Below the pieces are notes generated by a model. It ran no database searches, was not told where the DNA came from, and saw nothing but the letters and a program-made list of their open reading frames with translations. From contig CACFTI010000005.1 of assembly GCA_902569115.1 (NCBI GenBank), positions 31,142 to 95,141 on the forward strand: DNA of 64,000 nucleotides, read 5' to 3'. The translations under genes and the position numbers were made by a program. Shown here in pieces: positions 2,483 through 26,480 of this stretch. The stretch comes from an uncultured Verrucomicrobiota bacterium. Lineage in GTDB: Bacteria; Verrucomicrobiota; Verrucomicrobiia; Opitutales; Seribacteraceae. The first letter of the stretch is position 1. Each line of letters starts with the position of its first letter.

Positions 2483-2501
2483 ATCAACCAAAGACTACAT
2501 T

Positions 2502-3752: not shown

Positions 3753-3779
3753 TCGAGGTTAGTTCGACTTTCCAATGGC

Positions 3780-4463: not shown

Positions 4464-4479
4464 ATATAAAACTGAAACC

Positions 4480-5970: not shown

Positions 5971-5985
5971 ACCGTTTTAACGACA

Positions 5986-8403: not shown

Positions 8404-8408
8404 TCGCT

Positions 8409-9707
8409 ATGACTCATATTTCAACCAACCGTGCTTTGTCGAGAAGGTCCATTTTGAAGGGAAGTGGAATTGCCCTTGCCCTTCCATTTCTTGATGCGAT
8501 GAGTCCGGTTTTCGGGAAAGCGTCAAATATTTCGAAATCTCCCAAAAGATTTGTGGCAATGAATGCGGCTCTTGGATTTCATGGCCCCAACCTTTTTCCG
8601 GAGAAAGAAGGTAGGGACTATCTAGGCACACCATACCTTAAGATTTTGGAAGATTTTCGTTCGGACTTCACCCTCTTTTCGGGACTATCCCATGCGAACC
8701 AGCAGGGAAGCAGCGGTCATGCCTCGGAAATGACCTGGTTGACCGGAGTGGAAAGGCCCGGCCTCGCCGGGTTTAAGAATACCATTTCCATTGATCAGGT
8801 AATAGCTCGCAAAATGGGTGCTTCCACTCGATTTCCGTCCCTTAATCTTGGAACCGGTGGAGGTGGACAGTCGATTTCATGGGATGCCAATGGAGTTTCC
8901 ATTCCCTGTCAGGCTTCACCTTCTAAAATTTACCGTGAGCTCTTTGTTCAGGGAACAGAAAAAGAAGTAGAGCAGCAGGTGAATAATCTGGACCGTGGAA
9001 AAAGTATTCTCGATGTTGTTCTTGGAGATGCCAAATCATTGCGCTCGAATTTAGGGCACAGGGACAAGGAAAAGCTGGATCAATATTTTAGTTCCGTTCG
9101 TGAATTAGAAATCAGGCTTGAACAAAACAAGGAATGGGCACGAAAACCGAAACCGGATGTAAGTTATGAAGAACCCAAGGATGTGCAGGACCGGTACGAC
9201 CTTCTGTCCAGACAAAGGTTGATGTATGATTTAATGACACTTGCATTAAAGACCGACTCAACCCGCGTAATTACTTTTTCGTTGGGAGCTTTCAATGCAG
9301 TGCCCACCAACATTGATGGAGTTAAAACCGACTGGCATAATCTTTCCCACCATGGAAAGGATGAGAATAAAATTGATGAATTGGAGATCATAGAGAAAGA
9401 GGAATTTTCACTCTTTGCCAAGTTTCTTGGGGATTTGAAAAGCCATCAGGAAAACGGCTCTTCACTTCTCACAAATACAGCCATTCTTTTTGGGTCGAAT
9501 CTTGGCAATGCGTCCTCTCACGACTGGCGAAACTTACCCATCATTTTGGCTGGCGGTGGATACAGGCACGGTTCCTATGTCGCTCATGACTCTCAGGACA
9601 ATACACCATTGAGTAATCTTTTCGTACCGTTGGCTCAGCGTATGGGCGTTTCAATTGATCGATTCGGAAAAAGCACCAAGTCTTCCATCCGTGGACTGGA
9701 AAGTTAA
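8409..9707 (+). CDS. DUF1552 domain-containing protein
   Basis: 'LSRRSILKGSGIALALPFLDAMSP', 'FSGLSHANQQGSSGHASEMTWLTG'; directly follows the DUF1592-type gene, the usual pairing. Confidence 0.88.
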   Translation: MTHISTNRALSRRSILKGSGIALALPFLDAMSPVFGKASNISKSPKRFVAMNAALGFHGPNLFPEKEGRDYLGTPYLKILEDFRSDFTLFSGLSHANQQGSSGHASEMTWLTGVERPGLAGFKNTISIDQVIARKMGASTRFPSLNLGTGGGGQSISWDANGVSIPCQASPSKIYRELFVQGTEKEVEQQVNNLDRGKSILDVVLGDAKSLRSNLGHRDKEKLDQYFSSVRELEIRLEQNKEWARKPKPDVSYEEPKDVQDRYDLLSRQRLMYDLMTLALKTDSTRVITFSLGAFNAVPTNIDGVKTDWHNLSHHGKDENKIDELEIIEKEEFSLFAKFLGDLKSHQENGSSLLTNTAILFGSNLGNASSHDWRNLPIILAGGGYRHGSYVAHDSQDNTPLSNLFVPLAQRMGVSIDRFGKSTKSSIRGLES

Positions 9708-9735
9708 AGTTTGCTAACTTTAGCTTTGTAGTTGC

Positions 9736-9751
9736 CCCTCTAATTAGAGGG
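9736..9751. repeat. 16-bp perfect palindrome CCCTCTAATTAGAGGG upstream of a sulfatase gene
   Basis: Read directly; ends 19 nt before the ATG at 9770. Confidence 0.75.
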
Positions 9752-9769
9752 AATTTAACCTAATTCATA

Positions 9770-11074
9770 ATGAAATTAGTCTCATTTTCCTCCTTATATT
9801 TAATACTGCAAATAGCTGGGCAATTGTTTGGTTCCACGAAGCCCAATATCATTTTTATTATGGTCGATGACATGGGTTACCATGATCTCGGTTGTTATGG
9901 AAGTAAGACGATTAGCACTCCCAATATTGATCGTATGGCGAAGGAGGGTATCCGCTTTACCGATTGTTACTCCGGAGACACCGTTTGCGCATCCGCACGA
10001 AGTACCCTAATGACCGGCTATCACAAGGGACACACCCCGGTTCGCGGGAATTCCGGAGGAATCCCACTTTTCCCGGAAGATATCACCGTGGCTGAAGTCC
10101 TCAAAAAAGCTGGTTATGTGACTGGTGGTTTCGGTAAATGGGGACTGGGTAATCAGGGCAAGGATGGAGCGGCCGAACGGCAAGGATTTGATCTTTTTTA
10201 TGGTTATTACAACCAGTGGCATGCACACACTTATTATACTCATCTTTTTCGAAATAGTAAAAAGGTTGAGTTAAACGGTCGCTATACACATCACGCGATC
10301 TTCGATGAAACCATCAAGTTTATAAAGAATAATAAGGATAAGCCTTTCTTTCTTTATTGCCCGTGGACACCACCCCATGCGGCTTATCAAATTCCTGAGA
10401 ATGAGCCGGCGTGGAAAATGTATAAGGACAAACCCTGGCCTCATGACGCGAGGGTTGCCGCAGCCATGGATACCATGATGGACCGGCATGTTGGAGAGAT
10501 CACTGCACTCCTCAAGAAACTTGGCATAAATAAGAATACCTTGATGTTTTTTACTTCAGATAATGGAGCGGCCAAGCGGTTTGATGGGATCCACAATTCC
10601 TCCGGGGTAATGCAGGGAAAAAAGAGATCATTGAATGAGGGTGGCATAAGGGTCCCGATGGTGGTTCGCTGGCCTGGTAAAATAAAAGCGGGCAGGGTAA
10701 GCAGTCACCCTTGGTATTTTCCTGATGTTATGCCCACCTTTGCCGAGATTAGTGGTGTTTCCACTGAAGTGCCCGAGGATATCGATGGCATTTCCATTCT
10801 TCCCACATTGCTTGATAAGGGAGTGCAAAAGCAGCATGAATATATGTTTTGGCAATACGGGGTAAGGGCAGTGCGTTCAGGCAAATGGAAGGGGATTGGT
10901 AAGGGCGGTCATCTGTACCTTTATGATTTAAGTGAGGATATTGAAGAAAAAAACGATCTGTCCTCCAAGCATCCTGAGATTGCTGCGAGAATGAAGAAAT
11001 ACATCACGATTGGATACCGTGAGCCCCGTAGTCAAAAGGACGATGGTAAATACACGGGGAAAGACAAAAAATAA
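9770..11074 (+). CDS. Sulfatase (arylsulfatase-like), secreted
   Basis: 'KPNIIFIMVDDMGYHDLGCYG', 'TVCASARSTLMTGYHKGHTPVRGN', 'GKWGLG', 'MFFTSDNGA'. Confidence 0.92.
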   Translation: MKLVSFSSLYLILQIAGQLFGSTKPNIIFIMVDDMGYHDLGCYGSKTISTPNIDRMAKEGIRFTDCYSGDTVCASARSTLMTGYHKGHTPVRGNSGGIPLFPEDITVAEVLKKAGYVTGGFGKWGLGNQGKDGAAERQGFDLFYGYYNQWHAHTYYTHLFRNSKKVELNGRYTHHAIFDETIKFIKNNKDKPFFLYCPWTPPHAAYQIPENEPAWKMYKDKPWPHDARVAAAMDTMMDRHVGEITALLKKLGINKNTLMFFTSDNGAAKRFDGIHNSSGVMQGKKRSLNEGGIRVPMVVRWPGKIKAGRVSSHPWYFPDVMPTFAEISGVSTEVPEDIDGISILPTLLDKGVQKQHEYMFWQYGVRAVRSGKWKGIGKGGHLYLYDLSEDIEEKNDLSSKHPEIAARMKKYITIGYREPRSQKDDGKYTGKDKK

Positions 11075-11114
11075 TTCACTCAGAACCTAAGAAAAAGCTT
11101 TAGTGTATTAATTA

Positions 11115-11135
11115 GTATTTTTATCATAAAAATAC
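11115..11135. repeat. 21-bp perfect palindrome GTATTTTTAT-C-ATAAAAATAC abutting the start codon of the next gene
   Basis: Read directly; ATG at 11136 follows without a gap. Confidence 0.8.
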
Positions 11136-14100
11136 ATGAGAAGTGTGTTAGCAATTTCCATTAACCTGCTTTTATGCATAATTTTTGTTTTCTCACTGAA
11201 CGGTCAGAGGGAAATCGGGCATCCTCCCTTCATGAGTCCCCATTTTTCTCCGATTGTAATTTCGCAAGACAAGGTTTTCGTCGCCAATACCCCATCGGAT
11301 ACGATTGATGTTCTCGATAGTAAGTCGGGTCGCGTCCTCAGAAGAATCCCCGTCGGGTTAGATCCGGTCAGTCTGGCCATTCGTCCCGATGGCCGTGAAC
11401 TGTGGGTATCCAATCACATTTCTGATTCGGTCAGTGTGATTGATCTTGATGAGTTGAAACCCACTTTCATGCATGTCATTGCCACCATTCAGGATATCGA
11501 TCCGGAATCCAAGGCGACCCGTTTTGACGAGCCGATGGGGATTGCCTTTGCTGATGAAAAGAAGGCATATGTTGCTTTATCATCGGAGAACAAAATCGCG
11601 GTGGTGAATGTCGCTACCCGAAAAGTGATCAAATTCCTGAAGATTCCTGCTCAGGATCCCCGGGGTATTATGGTTCGTAATGACAGGCTTTATGTCATTC
11701 CTTTCGAGTCGAACAATAAGACCCAGCTTTCGGGCGGGTACAAGATCGATGGCAAACTCGTTACCTTTAATGCCCATGAGCACTCTATTGCCAATAACAA
11801 TATTTTGTCACTTGGGCATGTCACCGATATCGTAAAACATCCCCGCGTGCCCGACCGGGATTTGTTCGTTTTCGATGTCAAAACCGACAAGCTTATCGAG
11901 ACCGTCGATACCCTCGGCACTTTGCTTTACGGAATGACTGTGGACTCCAAGGGTACGGTTTTCGTTGCCCAGACCGATGCCAGAAATGATGTCAACGGCC
12001 GTGCAGGGACCAAAAAGCATGGGCTCAAGGAATTGGGTAACCGGGCTTTTCTAAACCAGGTCACCCGGGTACGCTTCGAGAAGGGGAAGGCTGTAAAACC
12101 TGAGTATTTTAACTTGGAACCCCTTCCACCGGTAGACCCAACGGAAGGTATGGCTTTAGCTACTCCCTTTGCGATCACCCTGAGTGGTGACGATTCGACT
12201 TTATTTGTAACGGCAGCAGGTTCCGACAAGGTTTTCTCCGTGGATGCCAATTCCGGAGAAGTTTTGAGCAGGGTCGGAGTTGAGGCTGTTCCGCGCGGGA
12301 TTACCCTTGAGCAGGACCCTTTGGGTAAGACTGCAAAGGCATGGGTTTTGAATGCGGTCCAAAATTCAGTTTCGGTAGTCGATGTTTCCGACCCTACCGA
12401 TCTCCGCCTGATTCGAACAATTCCGCTTGAAGATCCTACGCACCCTGAATTCAAGGCGGGTCGGATTGCTTTCAATAATGCCGATTTTTCAAGCACCAAG
12501 TCCTTTTCCTGTGCCAGTTGTCATCCTGATGGTCATACGGACCAATTGCTTTGGGTTTTGGAGACACCGATTGTATCAGGAGGCAACCAAATCATGCCCC
12601 GTTCCACCATGCCAGTGAGAGGCTTGCGCGATACGGCTCCATTTCATTGGGATGGTATACCCGGTGATCCTTACGGTGGAACCAATAGTGCCAGTGTCAG
12701 AAAAGCGGTAAAGCCCAATGTTGACTTGCAAGATCCGGTCAGTGCACCCCGTCATTTAGTGGATGGAAGCATGGCAACAACCATGAGGAAATATGGCGAC
12801 AAATCAGTAAACAATGAGGGGAAGGCAGGCTTAATGTCATCGACTGAGAGGGAGACTCTCTCAAGGTTTTTATTAGGCGTGACTTATCCGCCTGCCCAGC
12901 GACGCGCCTATGACAACAAGCTTAGTGCAAAGGCCGAGGAGGGCTTTGAGCTCTTTCACATCCTTGGAGACAACGACCCGACAAAAAATAAGCCAAATGT
13001 TTGCGGGGACTGCCACAGGATGCCTTTTTTGGTCAGTACGAATACACCCGGTTCCGGTATGGAAACTCCCACTTGGCGAGGAGCCTACGACCGTTTTCTG
13101 ATTTTGCCCCAAGGAAGACTTAACATCATTGATTTTCCCTTTTACCGCCGGGTGGCGGAGGAGGGTATTCCTGAGCGTGAAATGTGGCGATTTTCGTGGG
13201 GTGGCAGGAGTCGCTTTGATCCTGTTTGGGAAATGGTACTAGAAGGCTCGACTGGATTTTCCGGTTCCTTGGGCCGACAGGTCACCATCAATTCAACCAA
13301 TACTGAAGATTCCTTATCCAAAGATCTGCTTGATGCTCTCGAACTTTCATCTTCTGAGGGTGCAATCGTGCTGCAAGTGGAAGGCTTGATTTTCGAAGAA
13401 GGTGATGCCCGGTCGATAATCCTTCAGTATGATTCAAGTTTGAATGGGGGGAGTTATTTCGAGACTGCAGGACAGCGAAAGGCTTTTACACGTGATCGGC
13501 TTTTTCAACTGGCGAATGCGAACCAATTTGTCGGAACTTTTACCGGGAGGCATGGTAAGAACGCTGATTTCGAGAACCCGCAGCCTGGCATCTGGGCCGA
13601 AGGTCCGATTGAGAAGCAACGCGGAGCACAGAAGTTTCCAGTCCTGTTCAAACAGAACAAGACCATGGTGGTGAGTGGCCGGCATCTAAAGGAGGGAGCC
13701 TCTGTCATCGTAAACGGAAGAAAGGCGAAGGGTTCGGTAAGATTAAGCGATAATGAACGGGTTGAGATTGAGCTGGCGAATCTTCCGCCCGAGGGAATGC
13801 ATTTTGTTCAGTTACAAAATCGTGATGGCTTGTTCACTAATGACTTTATTTTTCATGTCTCGGACAAGCAGATCAAAATTGAAGACACTGGTCCGGATCT
13901 AAGCGAGGCGATTGCAACGGGGAATTTATCCAGGATTAAGCGTTTGGTTAAATCGGGAGCTGATGTCAATGAAAGAGCAGGGGATGGGGGGACTCCCTTG
14001 AGCACTGCCGCCTTTCATGGCCGCATTGAAATTTTTCGTTTTCTCCTTCAAAAAGGGGCCAGGCCGATGGCCAAGAACAGAGATGGCAATACACCCCTCC

Positions 14101-14390
14101 ATGTCGCTGCATTTATGGGACGCTTCGAGATTGTAAATCTCATACTCTCAAAGGGAGCCAATCTAAATATTCTTAATAACAGAAAAGAGACACCCATAGA
14201 TGTGGTTTCAGGAGAATGGAGTAATGAATTGGCTGGCTTTTATCGCCTTTTGAACGGTTTGACTACGAACAAGGTTGATCTTCAGGAAATTCGTAAGGCC
14301 CGTCCGCGCATGCAAAAACTTCTCAAGGGTGCGTCTAATGCGAAGCTCCCAAAGAAAAACATCCCTCATTCTCAACAAGTTAATCCATAA
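11136..14390 (+). CDS. YVTN-type beta-propeller / heme c / ankyrin-repeat fusion protein, secreted
   Basis: 1084 aa: 'LDSKSGRVLRRIPVGLDPVSLAIRPDGRELWVSNHISDSVSVID' propeller; 'CASCHPDGH' and 'CGDCHRMP' heme motifs; C-terminal ankyrin repeats 'DGGTPLSTAAFHGRIEIFRFLLQKGA', 'DGNTPLHVAAFMGRFEIVNLILSKGANLN'. Confidence 0.85.
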   Translation: MRSVLAISINLLLCIIFVFSLNGQREIGHPPFMSPHFSPIVISQDKVFVANTPSDTIDVLDSKSGRVLRRIPVGLDPVSLAIRPDGRELWVSNHISDSVSVIDLDELKPTFMHVIATIQDIDPESKATRFDEPMGIAFADEKKAYVALSSENKIAVVNVATRKVIKFLKIPAQDPRGIMVRNDRLYVIPFESNNKTQLSGGYKIDGKLVTFNAHEHSIANNNILSLGHVTDIVKHPRVPDRDLFVFDVKTDKLIETVDTLGTLLYGMTVDSKGTVFVAQTDARNDVNGRAGTKKHGLKELGNRAFLNQVTRVRFEKGKAVKPEYFNLEPLPPVDPTEGMALATPFAITLSGDDSTLFVTAAGSDKVFSVDANSGEVLSRVGVEAVPRGITLEQDPLGKTAKAWVLNAVQNSVSVVDVSDPTDLRLIRTIPLEDPTHPEFKAGRIAFNNADFSSTKSFSCASCHPDGHTDQLLWVLETPIVSGGNQIMPRSTMPVRGLRDTAPFHWDGIPGDPYGGTNSASVRKAVKPNVDLQDPVSAPRHLVDGSMATTMRKYGDKSVNNEGKAGLMSSTERETLSRFLLGVTYPPAQRRAYDNKLSAKAEEGFELFHILGDNDPTKNKPNVCGDCHRMPFLVSTNTPGSGMETPTWRGAYDRFLILPQGRLNIIDFPFYRRVAEEGIPEREMWRFSWGGRSRFDPVWEMVLEGSTGFSGSLGRQVTINSTNTEDSLSKDLLDALELSSSEGAIVLQVEGLIFEEGDARSIILQYDSSLNGGSYFETAGQRKAFTRDRLFQLANANQFVGTFTGRHGKNADFENPQPGIWAEGPIEKQRGAQKFPVLFKQNKTMVVSGRHLKEGASVIVNGRKAKGSVRLSDNERVEIELANLPPEGMHFVQLQNRDGLFTNDFIFHVSDKQIKIEDTGPDLSEAIATGNLSRIKRLVKSGADVNERAGDGGTPLSTAAFHGRIEIFRFLLQKGARPMAKNRDGNTPLHVAAFMGRFEIVNLILSKGANLNILNNRKETPIDVVSGEWSNELAGFYRLLNGLTTNKVDLQEIRKARPRMQKLLKGASNAKLPKKNIPHSQQVNP

Positions 14391-14430
14391 CTTTTTGGAA
14401 CTATTCCCTCAGGGTAGTGTTCCCGTAACC

Positions 14431-15954
14431 ATGAAACTCAAATTTACTTTTCTTTTGGTTTATACATTCGTTTTTGCTCACGGTGAGAAAGAAGACCTAC
14501 CCGATTTATGGAATGAATTTCGTGGGCCAAACGGTTCAGGTATTCGCATGGATGCCAAAATTGGGGTTCCTTCCATGCAGGAATTACTTTGGAAGACTCC
14601 ATTACCTTTTGGCTTGTCCTGTCCGGTTTTGTCGGAAGATAAAATCTTTCTCACCGGCTTTAAGGAGGGGCTTCTTCTTACTATCGCTTTGGATCGCATG
14701 ACCGGGGAAATCATCTGGCAAAGAAAGGCTCCGGAAGTAGAAATCGAAAAGTTTCATGCATCCAGTAGTCCGGCGACCCCGACACCTTTTGTGGGGCAGA
14801 ACAGACTGTATGTGTACTTTGGTTCCTACGGACTTTTATGCTATGACCACAATGGAAAGGAACTTTGGAAAAAACCACTTTCCACTCCAAAGAGCCTTTA
14901 TGGGACAGCCTGCTCCCCGATCGTCTATAATGAGATGCTAATTCTTGTCGCAGACGATGATGCAAACCTGCCGGACAGTAAAGTTAGTCGTTCTAAAATC
15001 CTCGCGATAAATAAAAAAGATGGATCAACGATCTGGCAAAGGCACCGTCCATTTCATCGTAGCGGGTGGTCAACTCCAGCAATTTTTGAAAAGATCGGAG
15101 GTGCGGAGCTGGTTGTATTAGGAAACGGTTCCCTTCGTGGATACTCGATGCCCGATGGGCAGGAAAAATGGCAGGTCGATGGATTCTCAAGGGAAACAAT
15201 TGCGAGACCTATGATCGGAAATGGAAAAGTCTACGGCTCCGGTTCAAGACTTGGGGGGTCTGCAGATTTGAATACGGATCCGCTCCCTTTCTGGAAGGCG
15301 GTTATCGGATTTGACCGTAATGGTGACGGACGACTGGAGCGAAAGGAAATGACCGGTCACTTTACCTTCCCTTTTCGTCCACAGCTTCCACCGGGGCATC
15401 TCGGGTATGGGCTCCCCTTACCCAAAGATTCTGAAAAAAAAAGGAAAAGACTGGATGCTATGTTTGGATGGATAGATAAAAACCGGGACGGTTTTTGGGA
15501 TAAAGAAGAGTTTCTTAAAAATCTGACCATTGGAAGAGGAAAACCCTTACTTGTTGCTGTTAAACCGGGAGGTGCGGGTAATGTGACTGATTCTCATATC
15601 CAGTGGGAGTTTAATAAAGGCATCCCGGAAGTTCCGTCTCCCATCCTCTATGATGACCTAATTTACATGGTTTCCAACGGTGGAGTCCTAACCTGTTTGA
15701 ATGCTGGCGTCGGGCAGATGGTCTATCGTAAAAGACTGCCCGGGTTGGGTCAGTATGTCGCCTCGCCGGTGGTTGCAGGCCAGAATCTAATTTTTGTTTC
15801 CGAGGAAGGTTTGCTCTCCGTGGTTAGGGCAGGAAAAGAATTTAAACTCTTGGGCCAGTTAAATGTGAAAGAAAATATTAGAGTCACACCAGCAGTTGGA
15901 AGACAAACTTTATACCTAAGAGGGGACTCCCATCTTTGGGCTTTTGGTAAGTGA
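14431..15954 (+). CDS. PQQ-like beta-propeller repeat protein with EF-hand insert, secreted
   Basis: ORF 14275..15954; probable start at 14431 (MKLKFTFLLVYTFVFAHG). 'WNEFRGPNGSG' PQQ-family opening; EF-hand loops 'DRNGDGRLERKE' and 'DKNRDGFWDKEE'. Confidence 0.83.
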   Translation: MKLKFTFLLVYTFVFAHGEKEDLPDLWNEFRGPNGSGIRMDAKIGVPSMQELLWKTPLPFGLSCPVLSEDKIFLTGFKEGLLLTIALDRMTGEIIWQRKAPEVEIEKFHASSSPATPTPFVGQNRLYVYFGSYGLLCYDHNGKELWKKPLSTPKSLYGTACSPIVYNEMLILVADDDANLPDSKVSRSKILAINKKDGSTIWQRHRPFHRSGWSTPAIFEKIGGAELVVLGNGSLRGYSMPDGQEKWQVDGFSRETIARPMIGNGKVYGSGSRLGGSADLNTDPLPFWKAVIGFDRNGDGRLERKEMTGHFTFPFRPQLPPGHLGYGLPLPKDSEKKRKRLDAMFGWIDKNRDGFWDKEEFLKNLTIGRGKPLLVAVKPGGAGNVTDSHIQWEFNKGIPEVPSPILYDDLIYMVSNGGVLTCLNAGVGQMVYRKRLPGLGQYVASPVVAGQNLIFVSEEGLLSVVRAGKEFKLLGQLNVKENIRVTPAVGRQTLYLRGDSHLWAFGK

Positions 15955-15992
15955 ATAACGGTCGGTATCCATCTGAAATCAATAAGTTTACC

Positions 15993-18900
15993 ATGAAATT
16001 CATCCTTACAAATTTGTGCTCTCTTTTGCTGGTCATCGCGGGTTTTGCCAAGGACAAACATCCGAATGTCGTCACCCTCCTTGTCGACGATCTCGGATAT
16101 CGTGATCTCGGCTGTTACGGGGGGCCTGTTAAGACTCCCATTCTCGACAATTTGGCCACTGGGGGCGTTCGTTTCACCGACTTTCACTCGGGAGCCCCTG
16201 GCTGCTCGCATTCGCGAGCCACCTTCCTTACGGGCCGCCACCACTATCGCACAGGTGTTTACTCCGTCATCACCGAACGGCTTCACAAGATGCATCTGCT
16301 GAAAAGCGAAACGACCATCGCCGAAGTGCTTAAGGAAAACGGCTATGCCACCGCTCACTTTGGGAAGTGGCACCTCGGTATGCCGGTAAACAATCGCGAC
16401 AACCCCACCCCTGCCGAACATGGCTTCGACTACTGGTTCGGCCTCGTTAACGGTCCGGGTCCCAGCCACAAGAACCCAACCCAGTTTCTGCGCAATGGTA
16501 AACGCGTGGGAGAGATGAAAGGTTACTCCTGTCAAATCGTTGTCGATGAGGCTCTCACCTGGCTTAATGAAAAGCGCGACGCCAAGGAACCCTTCTTTCT
16601 CAATCTTTGGTTCAACGAACCCCACGCTCCGATCGCGGCACCCGATGAGATCGTTTCCCAGTATGGTGCGCTCAACGATCAGGCCGCAATCTACAGCGGC
16701 ACCATCGACAACACCGACCGGGCGATTGGACGACTCATTGCAAGACTTGAAAAACTTGGGGAGCTAGAGAACACCATCATCGTCTACGCCTCCGATAACG
16801 GCAGCTACCGACCGGAGCGTAACGGAGAACTTCGCGGCCAGAAAGGATCTCAATTCGAAGGCGGGCATCGAGTCCCCGGCATCTTTTACTGGAAGGGCGG
16901 AATCCCCGGAGGACGTGTTGAGGACAAGCCCGCTGGTGTCGTCGACCTTCTTCCCACGCTCTGTGGATTGATCGGCATCAAGAAACCCGCGAATGTCCAC
17001 CTTGACGGCTCTGACCTCGCACCTCTGCTTACCAAGTCCGGCAAATTCAAGAGGCATCAGCCTCTCTTTTGGATAACAGGTGGAAATATGGTCATCCGAA
17101 TGGGTGATCACACTCTTTTTGCCTCCGGCACTGCGAAATCACCGATCGACTTGAAAGCGGCAAGTCGACTTACCGAGCAAATCAAGCAAGTCCTCGGTGA
17201 TGATCTTGAAAAAGTGTTGGACGGAAGGGATGTTAAGGATCTTCGTAACCGCCTGTTTAATATCGAGAGATTAGCCGATCCCGAGGCCGATCGCCTGAAG
17301 AGACAACTCAGGGAATTGTTCTACTTCAACGAAGCGTGGATCCCTGAACTCAAGAAGAGTGAGCTCGGCCGTGCCCAACAACTCTATGACCTATCGAAGG
17401 ATCTCAGTCAGCAAAACAACATCGTAAAAGACCACCCCAAACTTGTTGCCCGAATGAAAAAGAAAGCCGAGGTCATCTATGCGAGCGTCATGGCCGATGC
17501 TCCAGAATGGCTCACCACTGAAGAATTGGACGCCGCAATTAAGCCCCGAGGAAACGAACCGCAACGATCTGCCATCGGACTACCCGACAACGATATCGCA
17601 AAGCTCCTCGCCCGTATAGATAAGAATGACCTTCCAGACGGCTATCATGGAAGCCGACATCAGCCTTATGTCGATCGCATTATGGCCGGTCTTAAACCCG
17701 AACAGCGTGCCCGTGTCGGCCAACTCTGGAAAGATAAACGTCGGCTCGATTCTGATATACCCAACCCGGGAGCCTCCTTCGTTAGAATTCTTACACATAT
17801 TGCTAAAGAGAATCAAAAGAGTAAACAGTCCAACTTAATGAAGAGTGCTGAGAGTTGGGCTCATTGGCGCGGACCCAGTGCAAACGGAGTCGTTCCTTCG
17901 GCGAAACCACCCACCCACTGGAGCGAGAAAAAAAATATCCGATGGAAAGTGCCAATTGATGGAGCAGGTGCATCTACTCCGATTATTTGGAATGATAAAA
18001 TCTTTCTTTTGTCAGTAATTGATACGGGGAAAGTGGATCCTTCTCTGCCTCGTCCGGAAGATCAGCCCAAGAGAGTCTTTGATATCACTCATCCAAATAC
18101 TGAGTTTAAGTTTCTAGTTCTTTGTCTGGATCGCAAAAATGGTAAAGAGTTATGGAGAAGGGTGGCTACCCGCTTAATTCCACATGAGGGAACTCACCGG
18201 GATAATAACTACGCTTCAGCCTCTCCCACCACAGATGGTAAGTTGCTCTATTGCTGGTTTGGGTCGGCAGGATTGTTCTGTTATGACTTGGAAGGTAATA
18301 AGGTTTGGGAGCGTAACTTAGGTGAGGTCAAGATCGGAGCAAGTCTGGGGGAGGGGTGTTCGCCCGTTTTGTATAAGGACAAATTGGTTATTCTTAGGGA
18401 CAATCGCGGACAGTCGACCATACAGGTTTTGAATGCAAAAAATGGAGCAACCATTTGGAAGAAAAACCGGAACACCCGGAACGGTTGGGCCACACCCGCA
18501 GTTGTTGAACATGAAGGAAAAGTCCAGGTCATCACTACTGCATCCAGACCGGAAGCTGGCAATCGCAAGACTCCCGGTAAAGTGATCAGCTATGACCTTG
18601 AAAATGGAAACATAATCTGGGAATATTCGGGTCTTACGGACAATGCGATCCCGTGCCCGATCGTGGAGAATGGTGTGGCATACTGTATGACGGGTTACTT
18701 AGGTTTTTCCTTAGTCGCGGTGCCGATTTCTGGAAAAGGGGAACAGTCGCAAAACATTTTGTGGAGGAGAGAATTGGGCACCCCTTATGTCCCGTCTCCC
18801 ATATTGTATGATGGACTTCTTTATTTCACCCAGTCCAACCAGGCCATTCTTTCCTGTGTCGATGCAAAAACGGGCAAGGTTCTCATGGAGCGGACCCGTT

Positions 18901-19124
18901 TGCCCGGATTGTCAAATGTCTACGCTTCCCTAGTTGGAGCAGGTAATCATATTTATGTTGTTGGGCGCTACGGTAAGACGGCGGTGCTCAAAAGAACGGG
19001 GAAGTTCGACTTGGTGGCTACGAACACCTTGTCCGATCGCTTTGATGCCTCGCCCGCAGTAGTAGGTGATCAACTTTTCCTGCGTGGACATAAATCTCTC
19101 TACTGTATTGGTAAGCTAAACTGA
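15993..19124 (+). CDS. Sulfatase fused to a C-terminal PQQ-like beta-propeller domain
   Basis: ORF 15951..19124; probable start at 15993 (MKFILTNLCSLLLVIAGFA). N half: 'HPNVVTLLVDDLGYRDLGCYGG', 'GCSHSRATFLTGRHHYRTGVY', 'IVYASDNGSYRP'. C half from about 17850: 'WAHWRGPSANGVVPSAKPPTHWSEKKNIRWKVPIDGAGASTPIIW' ... 'FLRGHKSLYCIGKLN'. Confidence 0.88.
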   Translation: MKFILTNLCSLLLVIAGFAKDKHPNVVTLLVDDLGYRDLGCYGGPVKTPILDNLATGGVRFTDFHSGAPGCSHSRATFLTGRHHYRTGVYSVITERLHKMHLLKSETTIAEVLKENGYATAHFGKWHLGMPVNNRDNPTPAEHGFDYWFGLVNGPGPSHKNPTQFLRNGKRVGEMKGYSCQIVVDEALTWLNEKRDAKEPFFLNLWFNEPHAPIAAPDEIVSQYGALNDQAAIYSGTIDNTDRAIGRLIARLEKLGELENTIIVYASDNGSYRPERNGELRGQKGSQFEGGHRVPGIFYWKGGIPGGRVEDKPAGVVDLLPTLCGLIGIKKPANVHLDGSDLAPLLTKSGKFKRHQPLFWITGGNMVIRMGDHTLFASGTAKSPIDLKAASRLTEQIKQVLGDDLEKVLDGRDVKDLRNRLFNIERLADPEADRLKRQLRELFYFNEAWIPELKKSELGRAQQLYDLSKDLSQQNNIVKDHPKLVARMKKKAEVIYASVMADAPEWLTTEELDAAIKPRGNEPQRSAIGLPDNDIAKLLARIDKNDLPDGYHGSRHQPYVDRIMAGLKPEQRARVGQLWKDKRRLDSDIPNPGASFVRILTHIAKENQKSKQSNLMKSAESWAHWRGPSANGVVPSAKPPTHWSEKKNIRWKVPIDGAGASTPIIWNDKIFLLSVIDTGKVDPSLPRPEDQPKRVFDITHPNTEFKFLVLCLDRKNGKELWRRVATRLIPHEGTHRDNNYASASPTTDGKLLYCWFGSAGLFCYDLEGNKVWERNLGEVKIGASLGEGCSPVLYKDKLVILRDNRGQSTIQVLNAKNGATIWKKNRNTRNGWATPAVVEHEGKVQVITTASRPEAGNRKTPGKVISYDLENGNIIWEYSGLTDNAIPCPIVENGVAYCMTGYLGFSLVAVPISGKGEQSQNILWRRELGTPYVPSPILYDGLLYFTQSNQAILSCVDAKTGKVLMERTRLPGLSNVYASLVGAGNHIYVVGRYGKTAVLKRTGKFDLVATNTLSDRFDASPAVVGDQLFLRGHKSLYCIGKLN

Positions 19125-19399: not shown

Positions 19400-22072
19400 A
19401 TGAATCGAGAAGACGAAGTCTTTAAAAATTTCCTTGTGGAAATGGGTGAAAAGCTGGACGAGTTAGAGGGCGGTTTGGCTGAATTGGAAGAAGGTTTTTC
19501 TCAGGATGTGGTTAATAAGCTATTTCGTGCGGTTCATACTATTAAAGGAGGAGGAGGGTTTTTCGGATTAGTCAAAGTTTCAGAGCTTTCTCACATATTT
19601 GAGGATTTACTCATGAAGGTACGGGAAGGTGATCTTTCATATTCTGAAGAGATGATTGGTCCCTTCTATTCTGCATGTGATGCCCTCAAGGGAATGCATG
19701 AATCCGAAGACTTGGGGAATAGCCTTGATATCACTCAGATTTGTTCAGAATTAAAAGCGGTGGAAGGTAGTGATAAAATACCTGAGTCCACCCTTACCGA
19801 AAAAAGCGACCATGAACCGACGGAAATAGTCTGGGAAAAAGACTCTACAGAGGTCTTGGAACCGGAGGAGCCACAGGCGAGCAATCAGGCAAATCGTAAA
19901 GTGGAGAAGGTAGCCGCTGTTTCAGGAACTAAAGAAGTCAAAGAGGCTTCCCCATCCAAAAAATCGCAAGCAAAACAAATTCCCACTACCGATAATAAGG
20001 GCAGTCAAAATGAGACCATCCGGGTGAAGGTCGATCTCCTTAACAAACTGATGGAGCTTACTGGAGAGATCGTATTGGGCAGAAATCAACTCCTCAGACA
20101 ATTCGCCGATATGGAAGATAAATCCAATATGGTGGCGATGGCCCATATGATTTCCGATCTCCAGCAGCTCGTTTTGCAAACCCGGATGCAACCCATTGGA
20201 GGAACTTTTACCAAATTTAAGCGAATCGTCAGGGATCTTGCGAAACAACTGGATAAGCCAATTGATTTGGTGATCAAGGGTGAGGATACGGAACTGGACC
20301 GGAGTATTATTGAATCTCTTTCCGACCCGCTTACTCATTTGATTCGAAATTGTGCCGATCATGGTTTGGAGGATCCCTCAACCAGAGTTGGTCAGGGAAA
20401 AGATCGTGTAGGTACAGTTTTATTGGAGGCAAAACATGAAGGTGGACAGGTGGTCATCACCGTAGAGGATGATGGAAAAGGTATTGATGCGGAAAAAGTC
20501 AAAGCCAAGGCAATTGCCAATAATGTAATCTCTTCTGCAGAGGCTGAGTCGATGGGGGAGAACGAGGCGGCAAAACTTATCTTTCACCCCGGTTTATCAA
20601 CCGCGGAAGAAGTCACCAGTCTTTCAGGCAGGGGGGTAGGGATGGATGTGGTGAAATCAACTTTTGAAAAGTTGGGCGGTGCCATTGATCTGGAAACAAA
20701 TATTGGTAAGGGCACCAAGGTGATTATTCATCTGCCTACAACTTTGACGATTATGTCATCTCTGATTGTTCGAATTGAGGGAGACCGTTATGCGGTTCCC
20801 CATTCGGAGTTGAAGGAAGTCATTTTGGTAAGGCCCGAGGATGAAATCCAAATTGAAAAGATTCGTGAACGGGATGTCTATCGCTTACGCGGTACTCTTA
20901 TCCCGATTCTTTCAATGGAGGAAATTACCGGAGTTTCCAAAAGGGAAGAGACAAGCAGTGAAACAATTAGCAGAAATGGAGAGGTACTCTTTTTAGTACT
21001 GCACTCCGGTCTTAACCAATTCGGACTTCTGATTGACTCGATTGATCATACCGAGGAGATCGTGGTCAAGCCACTTGCACAGATTCTTAGCCGTCATACC
21101 TTTTATGCTGGCAGTTCGATTTTGGGAGACAGTGATGTGGCTATGGTCTTAAGTGCCAATGGAATTTGCCAGAGTCATAAACTTCATATTCACGATCTTG
21201 AAACGAATATAAAGACCAATAAGTCACTCGCTGAAATGCAGATATTGGACTTACAGGAAAAACAGGACCTGATGGTTTTTCGTTATTCGAAAGGCGAACA
21301 ACTGGCTATTCCCTTATCTTTGGTGTTCAAGGTCGAACAAATTGAAGTCTCCCAGATTCAAAAAATCTCAGATAATCATTTCATCAACTTGGAAGGTAAA
21401 AATATCCTGTTGTTGTACTTGGATAAATATTTGTCTCTCAAACCTTTACCGGATGGATTGGAAACTTTCTATATTATCACTCCAAAAATTAAGGATTTTG
21501 AAGTTGGGATCGTTGCTTCTTCGATCGAAGAATCCGTTCATACCAGATTAAATTTGGATAACCCGCCGATTAATCAGAATGCTATTCTTGGCATAACCAC
21601 TATTCGGGAAAAAATAACTTTCCTGGTGGATTTATTTAGCCTGGCTGAACAGGTATCTCCCGAAAGGTTTAAAAGAATTGATCTTGAAGGAAGGCCTGAA
21701 CAAGATCGTTTGTTGGTAGTCGAAGATACTCCTTTTTTCCGTGATTTGGAGAAAACTTATTTTGAGTCCGTTGGGTTTCGGGTAACACTCGCAAACAACG
21801 GACAGGAGGCCCTCGATTTATTAATGGAAAGACCAAGATATTTCAACCTGGTGGTTTCAGATATCGTCATGCCGGTCATGGATGGTTATGAATTAGTCAA
21901 AAGTATGAAATCCAGTGAGAAGCTCGATCACATCCCTGTGATTGCACTCACCTCCTTTACCGAAGAACAGAGCAGGGAAAAAGCATTGGCAGCAGGTTTT
22001 GATGGCTATGCTATAAAAACGAATAAAGAAAACATCCTGCGGGCTGTTGAACAATTTTTGATAGAGGAGTAG
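19400..22072 (+). CDS. cheA: Hybrid CheA-like histidine kinase with Hpt, two CheW-like domains and a C-terminal receiver
   Basis: 'LFRAVHTIKGGGGFFGL' Hpt; 'VDLLNKLMELTGEIVLGRNQLL' dimerisation; 'HLIRNCADHGLEDPSTR', 'LSGRGVGMDVV' ATPase; CheW-like segments; 'LLVVEDTPFFRDL...VVSDIVMPVMDGYEL' receiver. Confidence 0.93.
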   Translation: MNREDEVFKNFLVEMGEKLDELEGGLAELEEGFSQDVVNKLFRAVHTIKGGGGFFGLVKVSELSHIFEDLLMKVREGDLSYSEEMIGPFYSACDALKGMHESEDLGNSLDITQICSELKAVEGSDKIPESTLTEKSDHEPTEIVWEKDSTEVLEPEEPQASNQANRKVEKVAAVSGTKEVKEASPSKKSQAKQIPTTDNKGSQNETIRVKVDLLNKLMELTGEIVLGRNQLLRQFADMEDKSNMVAMAHMISDLQQLVLQTRMQPIGGTFTKFKRIVRDLAKQLDKPIDLVIKGEDTELDRSIIESLSDPLTHLIRNCADHGLEDPSTRVGQGKDRVGTVLLEAKHEGGQVVITVEDDGKGIDAEKVKAKAIANNVISSAEAESMGENEAAKLIFHPGLSTAEEVTSLSGRGVGMDVVKSTFEKLGGAIDLETNIGKGTKVIIHLPTTLTIMSSLIVRIEGDRYAVPHSELKEVILVRPEDEIQIEKIRERDVYRLRGTLIPILSMEEITGVSKREETSSETISRNGEVLFLVLHSGLNQFGLLIDSIDHTEEIVVKPLAQILSRHTFYAGSSILGDSDVAMVLSANGICQSHKLHIHDLETNIKTNKSLAEMQILDLQEKQDLMVFRYSKGEQLAIPLSLVFKVEQIEVSQIQKISDNHFINLEGKNILLLYLDKYLSLKPLPDGLETFYIITPKIKDFEVGIVASSIEESVHTRLNLDNPPINQNAILGITTIREKITFLVDLFSLAEQVSPERFKRIDLEGRPEQDRLLVVEDTPFFRDLEKTYFESVGFRVTLANNGQEALDLLMERPRYFNLVVSDIVMPVMDGYELVKSMKSSEKLDHIPVIALTSFTEEQSREKALAAGFDGYAIKTNKENILRAVEQFLIEE

Positions 22073-22075
22073 ACG

Positions 22076-22552
22076 ATGTTATATTCCACTTTTTATCTTG
22101 GAAATACCCAAATGGCCGTGCCCATTCCATGCATTTTGGAGATTGGTAGATCCTTCAATTTTCACCCCGTTCGGGGAGCACCGGAAGTGATTGACGGGTT
22201 GATTAATCTGCGAGGTAAAGTAGTCACCATTGTGAACTTGGGCCTTGCTTTCGAAGAATCAAAAATTGCACCTTCAGATGAGTCGAGAATCTTTATTTTT
22301 AAGAATAATTCCGAACTTAAGGAGGTAGCTGATTCGGACTTGGTCACTGAAACCGCCCCCGATAATATTGGCATCCATGTCGATCGTATTTCGGATGTAA
22401 TTCGGGTCGAAAATGAAGAATTGCAGTCGGTGCCGGCCAATATGGTGCATCCATTTTATAAGCATGTGGTCCGGCGTGGTGAGTCTTTCATTATCATTCT
22501 TGAACCTTCTAAGATTTTAAACCTTCACGAAACCCCTGATCTTTTATCATGA
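22076..22552 (+). CDS. cheW: CheW-like coupling protein
   Basis: 'YLGNTQMAVPIPCILEIGR', 'PRGAPEVIDGLINLRGKVVTIVNL'-type CheW pattern (read as HPVRGAPEVIDGLINLRGKVVTIVNL); 3 nt after cheA, 4-nt ATGA overlap with the next gene. Confidence 0.88.
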   Translation: MLYSTFYLGNTQMAVPIPCILEIGRSFNFHPVRGAPEVIDGLINLRGKVVTIVNLGLAFEESKIAPSDESRIFIFKNNSELKEVADSDLVTETAPDNIGIHVDRISDVIRVENEELQSVPANMVHPFYKHVVRRGESFIIILEPSKILNLHETPDLLS

Positions 22553-24711
22553 GCGAGGCAAAAAACATAAAATTCAACATCTACAACCCGATCATTACCT
22601 ACGAACACAGGGCGGCCTACGATATGATTGTAAGTCACCTACAGGAAATTTTCCCGATTTGTAACCAGGGTAAATGTAAGGCTCTCGAAGTTAGCGATGA
22701 TCCTCAGAAACAAAAACAGATCAATGATCTGATGGAAAAAGTGGAATTCTTTTCCAATAGCCTGATTACCATAACCAAAATATTTTTTGATCAGCTTTAT
22801 CGAGCGAAGCAAACTTCTTCCCAGTCAATTTCTCAATCCACAGCGATGATCAAAATTGATATGATCGAAAGGAATCTGCTTGAGCGCACCTGTGACGTTC
22901 GATGGTGGGCACTTGAGAAAGCCTTTTGGGAATGCATTACTCTTTCCACCAATTCCAAGGGCACCGGCAAAGGCAAGAGCGGCACAAGTTCGAATGCCAA
23001 AGCAATTAAGGAAGCGGTTGATTTGGCATGCACAAGGCTCGAAGATATTAGAAATTCATACACTCTATATCGTGATCTGGTGATTACAGATACCAATGGA
23101 ATTATTATTGCCAATTCCAATGCGGAACGCCGATCCCAAGTCATTGGAATGGATGTTTCGGATGAAGAGTGGTTTCAGAAAGCTTTGGAAACAAAGGATG
23201 GTTCTGAATATTTCGTGCAGGATGTTTCCAAATCAAAGATGGAAGATATGGACGCATTAATCTATTCGACCGCTCTTCGAGCCAATGGTGACGAACAGGG
23301 CAATGTGATCGGAGCCATGGGAGTGCTCTTTGATTTTCAAGGTGAATCCCAAATTATACTGAATGATTATTTACCCAAAGATTCCGAAGAACAGACCTTA
23401 GAGGGATGGTTTTCCTTTTTTACCAATAAAGATGGTAAGGTAATCTGTTCAAGTGATGAGAGCTTTGTGCCCAGCGGTCAAATGGCTGATCTACCGAGAA
23501 ATCATCGAAATCTCACTCATGCGGGGGATGTGATCGTTTCTACCGGTTCCGTATGTGGAAATCGTTCTCTGATTGTTTCTCATAAGAGCGAAGGTTTTGA
23601 TGAATACAAAGGGTTGGGGTGGACCAGCCATCTCGTGCTTCCAGAGTCTGCGATGTTCGAAAGATCTGTGACAAATGAAGATTATGGAATTTCTCCGCAG
23701 GAATTGATGAATTCCAAATTAATTCCTGAAAAAAACCAGCAGACCTACAGAGAGATTCAGCGAAATAAGGGGGATATCCAATTAATCTCAATCAACGGTA
23801 TTATTCTGGCAACGGATTTGGGTAAGGCGGGTACGAGTTTTATTCCTATTTTCGACCAGATCACCACCACCGGTAATTCTACCACCGGAAAGATGGAGGA
23901 GCTACTTTCCGAGATGTCGTCCGATATGCTTGAGCAGAATCTCAAAGCCCTCGAAAATTTCAGTAAGCAGGCGATCGATTTAATTGACCGCAATTTGTTC
24001 GAACGTGCCGCTGATGTTCGATGGTGGTCTACCGATCATGCTTTTTGGGAAGCCTTGCAGGAAGGATCCGAAGAAAAGTTTGAGGAGGCTGCTAAGCGTC
24101 TTGGTATCATAAACGCTTCTTACACAATGTACCGGGATCTTGTGATTGCAGATTCGAATGGTCGGATCGTGGCCAACTCCAAGTCTGAAAACCGCGATAA
24201 ATTGAAAAGAATGAATGTATCGGAGCAATCATGGTTCCGGCAGGGCATGCAGATTGCAAGGTCTGTTCAGTTTGGGGTCCAGGATGTCTGTGACAGTGAT
24301 CTCGAAAACGAAGAGACTTCATTAATCTATTGTGGAGGAATTCTCGAGAATGGACAAAGAGAAGGCAAGGTTCTCGGGGTTCTTGGAATTCTTTTCGATT
24401 GGGAAAATTTAGTTCATCCTATTCTTGAGGGTTGTTTACCTAGAATTAAGGGAGAAGTTGTCGATGGAGGTGTTGCCTTTTATGTTAATGAAGAGCAAAG
24501 AGTGATAGCTTCGACAGATTCAGAAAATTTTAAAATCGGACAAGTCGTCAATTTGCCCAGTGAAAACCTTAACTTGGAAGTTGGAGAATCCGCATCAGGT
24601 ATTTTCACGGCCAATGATAAGAAATATATTATCGGCTCATCGCGAACACAGGGATATCGTGAGTACAAAGGTCTTGGCTGGACAGCTCATGTGGTTCGTC
24701 CAATAGACTGA
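22549..24711 (+). CDS. Soluble protein with two homologous Cache-like sensor units, no recognisable MCP signalling domain
   Basis: Internal duplication: 'MIERNLLERTCDVRWWALEKAFWECI...YTLYRDLVITDTNGIIIANSN' versus 'LIDRNLFERAADVRWWSTDHAFWEAL...YTMYRDLVIADSNGRIVANSK'; each unit ends 'YKGLGWTSHLV' / 'YKGLGWTAHVV'. No obvious TM segment. Confidence 0.75.
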   Translation: MSEAKNIKFNIYNPIITYEHRAAYDMIVSHLQEIFPICNQGKCKALEVSDDPQKQKQINDLMEKVEFFSNSLITITKIFFDQLYRAKQTSSQSISQSTAMIKIDMIERNLLERTCDVRWWALEKAFWECITLSTNSKGTGKGKSGTSSNAKAIKEAVDLACTRLEDIRNSYTLYRDLVITDTNGIIIANSNAERRSQVIGMDVSDEEWFQKALETKDGSEYFVQDVSKSKMEDMDALIYSTALRANGDEQGNVIGAMGVLFDFQGESQIILNDYLPKDSEEQTLEGWFSFFTNKDGKVICSSDESFVPSGQMADLPRNHRNLTHAGDVIVSTGSVCGNRSLIVSHKSEGFDEYKGLGWTSHLVLPESAMFERSVTNEDYGISPQELMNSKLIPEKNQQTYREIQRNKGDIQLISINGIILATDLGKAGTSFIPIFDQITTTGNSTTGKMEELLSEMSSDMLEQNLKALENFSKQAIDLIDRNLFERAADVRWWSTDHAFWEALQEGSEEKFEEAAKRLGIINASYTMYRDLVIADSNGRIVANSKSENRDKLKRMNVSEQSWFRQGMQIARSVQFGVQDVCDSDLENEETSLIYCGGILENGQREGKVLGVLGILFDWENLVHPILEGCLPRIKGEVVDGGVAFYVNEEQRVIASTDSENFKIGQVVNLPSENLNLEVGESASGIFTANDKKYIIGSSRTQGYREYKGLGWTAHVVRPID

Positions 24712-24728
24712 AACAAAGTCGTTTCTGT

Positions 24729-26480
24729 ATGAGTAAGCGTGTGCTGATTGCCTCGACTATCGGGGCGGTTGCCAAAAGCCTTGGTGGGCTTTGCGGAAAG
24801 CATGATGCTGCAGTCAGTTATTCAGAGCATGGCAAAACGCTCTATGCACAATTAATCGACGGTAGGCATCAAGTCTTACTCGTGGAAATTAACTTCATTG
24901 AGGGTGAGTATCGCGATTTGATTGCCAAAATTCGCTCTAAAGATCAATTGCGCGACTTATTCATCATTGTCTATGCCCCTGATGAATTAAGTAAATCTGA
25001 ACAGGCACGGATCAACGGGGCCAACGCAATTCTGACCTCTCCGTTTACGGATATCAAAATCCTAACCCTATTTAAGCGTGCCTTTTTTCTTCCGAAACAA
25101 TGCCTTTTTGTGAGTCCTTCCTCGCATGAAGAATTCTCGTTGGCTCTGGTGAAGATGGGTTATGATTTTAAGCAAGTGAATGATGCCAATTCTGTCTTGG
25201 AGGACGATTCACCTCAGGTTCCGGACTTTCTGATCGTTGATTTCAGTTTGCCCGACATGAGCGGGACTGAATTTGTGCAAAAGCTGAAGGATAATGATCG
25301 GTTGAAAAATGTTCCCCAAATCATTGCATATGAGGGCAGGGGAGCTGGCGAGATCGAAGAGATCTTAAAGGCTGGAATCGAAGATGTGATCCTTTCCCCC
25401 TTTGCCTCTGCCCAAAATATTAAACAGATTCAGGATAAGTTCCCTTTGCCACCCAAAGGAAGAAGGCTGCGTGCCCTAGTAGTGGACGATAGCCCTACCA
25501 TTCGAGATTTAATTGCCAGCATGTTCAAGGAACTTGATTATCAGGTCGAGACTGCGGAGAATGGTTTTGAGGGATACAAGGCAGTTCAGAGAAACAAGCC
25601 GGACATTATTACATCTGATTATGATATGCCTGTTCTCAATGGATGGGAGTTTTGTACCGAAGTGCGTGATCATGAGGATTACAAAGATATTCCGATCATA
25701 ATGATTACCACGCGGGCTACGGATCTGGATCTTAAAAAGGGAGAGATTCTCGGCGTATCTGCTTATTTGGCCAAGCCCTTTGCCAAAGACACATTGAAAT
25801 CTGCTGTTGAAACTGCGATTTCAAACGCACGTACCAAAAAAGAGCAGGAGACCATCGCCAAGTTTGTCGCTGCGGATACCTTAAATGCGGTAAGCAGTAT
25901 GGTGGATGAGCAACAGGATGCCGGGATGGGGGAATCCAAGCACATCACGGTTCTGTTTTCTGATATCTGTGCTTTTTCATCAAAGTGTGAAAGATTTTCT
26001 GCTCGAAAAATCATCAACCTTCTCAATACCTATTTTGATCTAATGGTGGAGGTGCTATCGCAGAACAATGCGATTATCGACAAGTTTATTGGTGATGCCA
26101 TTGTCGCCCGTTTTGATTCCGGAGATCCCGCCACGGATGCTTTAAATGCTGTCCGGGGAGCATGGGGTATGTGTCGAGAACTTGAACGCTTCAACTTGGA
26201 TTCTTTTGAGGAAGTGCAAAGCCGAATAGGAATTAACAGTGGAGAAGTAATCCTCGGAAATCTTGGTTGCCAAAAACATAGGCTGGAATACGCAATGATC
26301 GGGGATAATGTTAATATCGGTCAGCGACTTGAAAGCAGTGCCCCAAAGCAAGGCGTCATGATTTCGGAATCCACATACGAGCTGGTTAAAGATCACATTC
26401 TAGTTGGTGAAAGACAGGAGATCGAAGTGAAGGGCAAAAGTGAAAAAGTTGCCGCCTATGTCTTGGAAGGCTTGGTTTAG
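24729..26480 (+). CDS. Multi-receiver protein with C-terminal class III adenylate/guanylate cyclase domain
   Basis: Receiver 'LRALVVDDSPTIRDL...IITSDYDMPVLNGWEF...YLAKPF'; cyclase 'TVLFSDICAFSSKCE', 'IIDKFIGDAIVARFD', 'LEYAMIGDNVNIGQRLESSA'. Confidence 0.92.
   Translation: MSKRVLIASTIGAVAKSLGGLCGKHDAAVSYSEHGKTLYAQLIDGRHQVLLVEINFIEGEYRDLIAKIRSKDQLRDLFIIVYAPDELSKSEQARINGANAILTSPFTDIKILTLFKRAFFLPKQCLFVSPSSHEEFSLALVKMGYDFKQVNDANSVLEDDSPQVPDFLIVDFSLPDMSGTEFVQKLKDNDRLKNVPQIIAYEGRGAGEIEEILKAGIEDVILSPFASAQNIKQIQDKFPLPPKGRRLRALVVDDSPTIRDLIASMFKELDYQVETAENGFEGYKAVQRNKPDIITSDYDMPVLNGWEFCTEVRDHEDYKDIPIIMITTRATDLDLKKGEILGVSAYLAKPFAKDTLKSAVETAISNARTKKEQETIAKFVAADTLNAVSSMVDEQQDAGMGESKHITVLFSDICAFSSKCERFSARKIINLLNTYFDLMVEVLSQNNAIIDKFIGDAIVARFDSGDPATDALNAVRGAWGMCRELERFNLDSFEEVQSRIGINSGEVILGNLGCQKHRLEYAMIGDNVNIGQRLESSAPKQGVMISESTYELVKDHILVGERQEIEVKGKSEKVAAYVLEGLV

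Follow-up and report, generated by a model that had tools for sequence, protein, structure and literature searches.

We describe a four-gene operon in the window analysed here, a 64,000-nucleotide (nt) stretch from an uncultured marine Opitutales bacterium of the phylum Verrucomicrobiota (contig C5:31142-95141; host assembly of 2.38 Mb, 70% complete). The operon encodes a hybrid CheA kinase, a CheW coupling protein, a soluble sensor and a receiver-linked class III nucleotidyl cyclase, and it is probably a horizontally mobile pathway of the chemosensory type, complete in itself, whose output is a second messenger. Its genes are conserved as a unit in two phyla, the sensor has a predicted dCache fold and chemoreceptor ancestry, the catalytic and phospho-acceptor residues are intact, and searches for CheB, CheR and methyl-accepting chemotaxis proteins (MCPs) in Opitutales genomes that carry the operon gave no matches. 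The evidence for this architecture and for the missing parts is good. From them we infer how the receptor may contact CheW and CheA, how phosphate may reach and control the cyclase, with ATP as its substrate, and what kind of ligand and physiological target may be involved.

Layout and spread of the operon

Four open reading frames on the forward strand, of 890, 158, 720 and 583 amino acids (aa), follow one another in the order hybrid CheA, CheW, sensor, receiver-cyclase. They are separated by 3 nt between cheA and cheW, a 4-nt ATGA overlap between cheW and the sensor gene, and 17 nt between the sensor and cyclase genes. These coordinates agree with the initial annotation, which had been made from the letters alone. 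Pfam assigns Hpt, H-kinase_dim, HATPase_c, two CheW and Response_reg to gene 1, and CheW to gene 2. Gene 3 contains two dCache_1 domains, and gene 4 contains Response_reg (two stretches) and Guanylate_cyc. The features of the operon, including the three receiver (REC) domains of the cyclase protein and the elements seen in AlphaFold2 (AF2) models, are as follows:

19400..22072 (+), hybrid CheA kinase, 890 aa (Pfam domains; conserved residues in four orthologues)
19418..19660 (+), CheA Hpt (P1) with phospho-acceptor His46 (Pfam; AVHTIKGGGG invariant in four orthologues)
20324..20743 (+), CheA HATPase (P4) (Pfam)
20762..21175 (+), CheA CheW-like domain 1 (P5) (Pfam)
21290..21652 (+), CheA CheW-like domain 2 (match at G000:C5:52431-52793)
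21713..22042 (+), CheA C-terminal receiver with phospho-acceptor Asp821 (Pfam; orthologue alignment)
22076..22552 (+), CheW coupling protein, 158 aa (Pfam)
22549..24711 (+), soluble tandem hairpin-dCache receptor, 720 aa, without transmembrane segment (Pfam, AF2, hydropathy, Foldseek)
22600..22908 (+), sensor N-terminal helical hairpin, residues 18-120, nearly invariant (AF2 helices 18-48 and 52-120; pN/pS)
22984..23658 (+), sensor dCache domain 1 (Pfam, AF2, Foldseek)
23728..24027 (+), sensor hairpin 2, residues 394-493, comprising the degenerate MCP tip and the helix into dCache 2 (AF2; hhalign)
23755..23862 (+), sensor MCP-tip core, residues 403-438, IQRNKGDIQLISINGIILATDLGKAGTSFIPIFDQI (homologue alignment)
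24070..24708 (+), sensor dCache domain 2 (Pfam, AF2, Foldseek)
24729..26480 (+), REC-REC-REC-class III nucleotidyl cyclase, 583 aa (Pfam; orthologue alignment)
24729..25079 (+), REC1 pseudo-receiver, Glu53 for Asp and Ser104 for Lys (alignment; receiver-like secondary structure in AF2)
25092..25442 (+), REC2 pseudo-receiver, acidic pocket lost and Asp171 unconserved (alignment)
25470..25823 (+), REC3 canonical receiver, D253, D254, D297, T327 and K349 invariant (Pfam; alignment)
25932..26468 (+), class III cyclase domain, metal-binding Asp412 and Asp456, Lys452, Asn529 and Arg533 invariant; Ala522 (Pfam; alignment)

A search for the same gene set, which the initial annotation had proposed, recovered all four genes in identical order at six other Opitutales loci (L044-L049, two of which are contigs of genomes also counted under G names below) and at four loci (L050-L053) from Gammaproteobacteria of methanotroph lineage, of which L050 and L051 lose the 5' part of cheA to the contig end. 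The initial reading of a compact, chemosensory-like operon with a receiver-linked cyclase as its sole co-encoded output is supported, and the recurrence shows that the arrangement did not arise by chance. Identity to the window proteins ranges from 57 to 95% across all four proteins in these loci, that of the sensor being 83-92% among Opitutales and 66-68% across phyla, and the spacing stays short (3-5 nt, a 4-nt overlap that is 12 nt in one locus, and 13-42 nt, respectively). The flanks differ between lineages, and neighbours are shared with the window only in a near relative (L047); even there, the antiporter gene found downstream of the window operon is not adjacent to the operon. Because of these differing flanks, we dropped the conserved neighbourhood as a clue to function.

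The gene trees display the same three clades, and their pairwise distances correlate with r = 0.88-0.98. A close match (>80%) was present in 4 of 132 sampled genomes of the host's order and was missing from four other genomes of the same genus, while a full-length orthologue was present in 4/311 genomes of the gammaproteobacterial order. This patchy distribution, together with the identity across phyla, points to horizontal spread of the operon as one co-inherited, self-contained module. Misbinning is an unlikely source of the gammaproteobacterial copies, since four separate genomes of that order carry them. The four-gene operon is under strong purifying selection, which acts on the sensor tip (nonsynonymous to synonymous polymorphism ratio, pN/pS, of 0.008-0.02 in the tip core), the N-terminal hairpin of the sensor (≈0.01), REC3 and the cyclase, and is weaker in REC1 and REC2. 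The sensor tip and the N-terminal hairpin rank with the most constrained regions of the operon.

The tandem hairpin-dCache sensor

Nothing in the sensor resembles a transmembrane segment (maximum hydropathy of 1.39 over 19 residues). Its AF2 model, with a mean predicted local distance difference test score (pLDDT) of 80 and a predicted template modelling score (pTM) of 0.75, shows helices 18-48 and 52-120, a dCache domain, helices 394-423 and 432-493, and a second dCache domain. Foldseek matched the model to the dCache ligand-binding domains of Tlp3, DctB and PctA, and both the PF02743 match and the double-PAS-like fold identify these domains as dCache.

The direct homologues of the sensor are soluble dCache MCP-like proteins built from one hairpin-dCache unit in place of two, and they align to its second half. 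Some of them carry a normal MCP tip above the Pfam MCPsignal cut-off, for example INAQIEAARAGESGKSFAIV, and the window sensor reads INGIILATDLGKAGTSFIPI at the same position. A tip-only profile alignment against homologues that pass this cut-off gave E=2e-5, and Asn416 is invariant in 26 of 26 aligned homologues. Given the intact tip of the relatives, the profile match, the invariant Asn416 and the constraint on the tip, the alignments identify the sensor as a diverged chemoreceptor, descended from short soluble chemoreceptors, in which the tip has been remodelled and not lost. The sensor had been described at first as a non-MCP protein; this holds as far as the MCPsignal domain (PF00015) is concerned, for which the window sensor gave no match even at E=5, but the degenerate MCP hairpin tip is present. 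The N-terminal hairpin showed no detectable similarity to the MCP tip in a profile-profile alignment (hhalign), and the idea that the two are homologous was set aside. Going by the predicted helices, the two hairpins of the single chain could stand in for the four-helix bundle formed by an MCP dimer.

Two further ideas were considered and set aside. Cysteines C38 and C43 are conserved in the four-gene orthologues and had suggested redox or metal sensing, but C43 is Ser in a relative from another Verrucomicrobiota family and genus (genome G1009). The other was plasmid carriage: the only matches on plasmids were distant MCP-like relatives, several of them annotated as methyl-accepting chemotaxis proteins.

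The sensor is tied to CheA and CheW by three independent associations: linkage in the operon, fusions to CheW and the G1009 cluster. Tandem-dCache relatives with a C-terminal CheW domain occur in Methylococcales and Aliarcobacter. These receptor-coupling-protein fusions are soluble and located away from che genes (L145:8363-10987, L149:9166-11766 and L054:7315-9900). In G1009, a sensor 48% identical to that of the window adjoins a CheA-REC and a CheW, with the cyclase missing (sensor-CheA(REC)-CheW at L154:5659-11654, in a genome with 22 MCP-domain matches). The core of the system is thus the sensor, CheA and CheW. One of the single-unit relatives has cheR on one side and a receiver gene on the other; it belongs to a classical che locus with CheA, CheB, CheW and an MCP.

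These associations bear on the possibility that the sensor is a soluble dCache protein that acts separately, for example in an allosteric or scaffolding role, and does not dock to CheA or CheW. The lack of an MCPsignal match would fit such a role, as would the loss of the Glu and Arg with which MCP tips touch their neighbours in trimers of dimers (E385 and R388 in Tsr numbering, replaced here by Leu and Asp). We nevertheless consider it very improbable: the tip core ranks with the best-conserved stretches of the operon, CheW is fused to tandem-dCache relatives, and the G1009 sensor is again linked to CheA and CheW.

Proposed phosphotransfer and cyclase output

CheA and CheW together provide a chemosensory core, consisting of the Hpt histidine, the dimerisation, ATPase and P5/CheW-like domains, and the coupling protein. 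In CheA, H46, N317, the G-boxes, D821 and K873 are invariant among four orthologues. The initial annotation was correct in assigning three receiver domains to the cyclase protein, but only REC3 keeps a phosphorylation site. Its residues D253, D254, D297, T327 and K349 are kept in all orthologues, and it qualifies as a receiver; REC1 and REC2 lack the site and do not. Identity to the more distant orthologues is 36-50% for REC1 and REC2 (36-38% for REC1) and 79-80% for REC3. On these residues, REC3 is predicted to be the only phosphorylatable receiver of the protein, and REC1 and REC2 are classed as pseudo-receivers.

The cyclase domain retains the metal-binding D412 and D456, the transition-state residues N529 and R533 and the purine-specifying K452, and the Thr/Asp position that would make the second purine contact is Ala522 in all orthologues. 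An inactive domain, which the initial annotation had considered as an objection, is thus not indicated by the conserved active-site residues. The related class III domain of Synechocystis Cya2 (2W01, 6FHT) likewise has a small second-purine residue, Gly in Cya2 and Ala here. Wild-type Cya2 has a Glu where the operon cyclase has Lys452, and makes cyclic GMP (cGMP); the E488K variant, with Lys at the equivalent position, gains adenylate cyclase activity and makes cyclic AMP (cAMP) (PMC5995499). Because Lys452 matches this change, cAMP is the likely product, and the protein is predicted to be an adenylate cyclase.

Cyclic nucleotide monophosphate (cNMP)-binding proteins were found in all eight carrier genomes searched. 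Among those read, MscS-type channels with a C-terminal cNMP domain occur in G000 (the window's genome), G018 and the gammaproteobacterial G473, and are candidate cAMP effectors. The channel gene of G473 lies divergently upstream of the operon (L053:1388-2935, - strand), whereas those of G000 and G018 are unlinked to it (L135 and L123). Another protein of G000 (L141:610-1731, 373 aa) combines a receiver with a cNMP-binding domain at its N terminus and may link cyclic nucleotides to two-component signalling.

The proposed pathway would begin with the soluble receptor, made of two hairpins that are each joined to a dCache domain; its degenerate tip would dock to CheW and to the P5-like domains of CheA. 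An intracellular ligand bound by the dCache domains would alter autophosphorylation of CheA at His46. From there, phosphate would pass to Asp297 in REC3 of the cyclase protein, and also to the CheA receiver, which could serve as a sink or an intramolecular brake. Phosphorylated REC3 would alter how the class III domain dimerises, or the geometry of its linker, and thereby the output of cAMP. Such a pathway would run without methylation-based adaptation.

Alternatively, the cyclase may be co-transcribed with the kinase yet lie outside its control, with CheA working chiefly via the receiver that it carries itself or via further regulators, and with REC3 answering to another kinase. The hybrid CheA does have an intact receiver, and the G1009 cluster shows that sensor, CheA and CheW can occur with the cyclase missing. 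Against this arrangement, which we regard as rather improbable, the cyclase stands beside the kinase in every complete four-gene locus of two phyla, its divergence correlates with that of CheA, and REC3 belongs to the best-conserved stretches of the cyclase protein.

Chemotaxis partners, flagella and related systems

We searched six Opitutales carrier genomes (G000, G121, G037, G018, G470 and G471; completeness 70-95% where known) for other chemosensory genes, with positive controls that came out as expected for CheW, CheB, MCP and CheR. In all six, the three CheW domains of the operon were the only ones, CheB was not found and the MCP signalling domain had no match; CheR was not found in the four genomes searched for it (4/4). 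Thus, MCP, cheB or cheR genes elsewhere that could belong to this kinase, a possibility raised in the initial annotation, did not appear in the genomes searched for each. Accidental loss of che genes through incomplete assemblies is unlikely because six genomes agree, and the operon appears to be the only chemosensory system of these flagellated Opitutales. The gammaproteobacterial carriers G472 and G473 have further CheW, CheB and MCP genes.

No flagellar genes lie near the operon, as had been noted from the window, but this does not extend to the genome: FlhA was found in all six Opitutales carriers. The G000 sequence matches flagellar FlhA better than the type III secretion protein SctV, the score of the stretch submitted falling just short of the curated cut-off. 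In G018, G470 and G471 the flagellar clusters that were read include FliM and MotA/MotB, and in G037 part of a cluster was read (L155, L157, L159 and L160-L167 in G018, G037, G471 and G470). With flagella encoded in the carrier genomes, the pathway may have a part in motility. The operon could therefore be a flagellar chemotaxis pathway, in which CheA would signal through an unlinked CheY-like protein to FliM, and the cyclase would be secondary or link cAMP to flagellar expression. This reading draws on the presence of FlhA in all six carriers, whose only CheA and CheW are those of the operon, on the flagellar clusters, and on an N-terminal motif in the FliM of G018 (FSQDELDRM) that resembles a CheY-binding site. 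It is unlikely, on the other hand, in view of the output encoded alongside, which is a cyclase and not CheY. Furthermore, no receiver gene was detected in the screened flagellar cluster stretches and their flanks with the two window receivers as queries, the FliM proteins of G470 and G471 apparently have no clear CheY-binding motif, and FlhA was not found in G473, an incomplete genome that carries the operon. This last observation speaks against a tie between the module and flagella.

Several observations weigh against a self-contained pathway with second-messenger output. At 70-95% completeness, where known, che genes may have escaped the searches, and FlhA is present in the six Opitutales carriers. 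The receiver of CheA might keep phosphate from reaching the cyclase. The AF2 model of the cyclase protein is poor (pLDDT 61) and readable only in the N-terminal receiver-like domains. In the sensor, the absence of a PF00015 match and of the trimer contacts counts on the same side. A more far-reaching form of the proposal is tentative and somewhat doubtful: a wholly cytoplasmic, adaptation-free pathway in which one polypeptide supplies both halves of the chemoreceptor "dimer", CheA directly drives cAMP synthesis by the receiver-cyclase, and the whole has replaced MCP-CheR-CheB in flagellated Opitutales.

The closest working analogue is the Wsp system of Pseudomonas, in which WspE, a CheA homologue with a receiver, phosphorylates the receiver-cyclase WspR to produce a second messenger, following a non-motility logic (PMC8552884). 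Both systems combine a CheA that has its own receiver with a receiver-cyclase. Wsp, however, has the methylated MCP WspA, homologues of CheR (WspC) and CheB (WspF), and a GGDEF output (WspR), whereas the operon has a soluble degenerate receptor, one CheW and a class III cyclase. Since MCP, CheR, CheB and GGDEF are all missing, the operon is not a Wsp system.

It also resembles alternative cellular function (ACF) pathways, in which multidomain response regulators, some with cyclase output, are encoded with che genes. By its response regulator, the REC-REC-REC-cyclase encoded with the kinase, the operon would be placed among the ACF pathways (PMC3447774). CheR is described as a core enzyme of all chemosensory families (PMC3447774), unlike the situation in the Opitutales carriers searched, where CheR and CheB were not found. 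Like the Pil-Chp system of Pseudomonas aeruginosa, the operon links a Che-type system to cAMP, and among solved structures the cyclase domain closest to that of the operon is CyaB. PilJ, PilK and ChpB are components of Pil-Chp, whose action on CyaB is indirect; the operon cyclase, by contrast, carries its own receiver. A connection to the methanol and formaldehyde taxis receptors of Methylobacterium (PMC10613068) was considered and then set aside.

The literature searched, which included few subscription papers, yielded no published description of the four-gene set. The initial annotation had proposed it as a candidate for an undescribed signalling system; this apparently stands for the set of genes, but REC-mononucleotidyl cyclase regulators have been reported in ACF chemosensory clusters, including CheR-TPR clusters (PMC3447774). 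The four-gene set is a real and conserved variant of chemosensory pathways, and apparently an undescribed one.

Promoter and terminator scans gave no excess above shuffled sequence. Around the operon (window 482-19124 and 30998-63700), the encoded proteins include transporters, a sulfatase-like protein, an ankyrin-repeat protein and others with PSCyt/PSD domains, none of which shows an obvious connection to it.

If the proposed pathway is correct, a CheA/CheW machine can run without canonical receptors or methylation-based adaptation and connect a cytoplasmic receptor to cAMP with four proteins in total. It would then offer a very small target for reconstitution, with which to define the features of a receptor tip that are indispensable for controlling CheA. 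A related question is how bacteria with flagella but without MCPs, CheR or CheB control their swimming.

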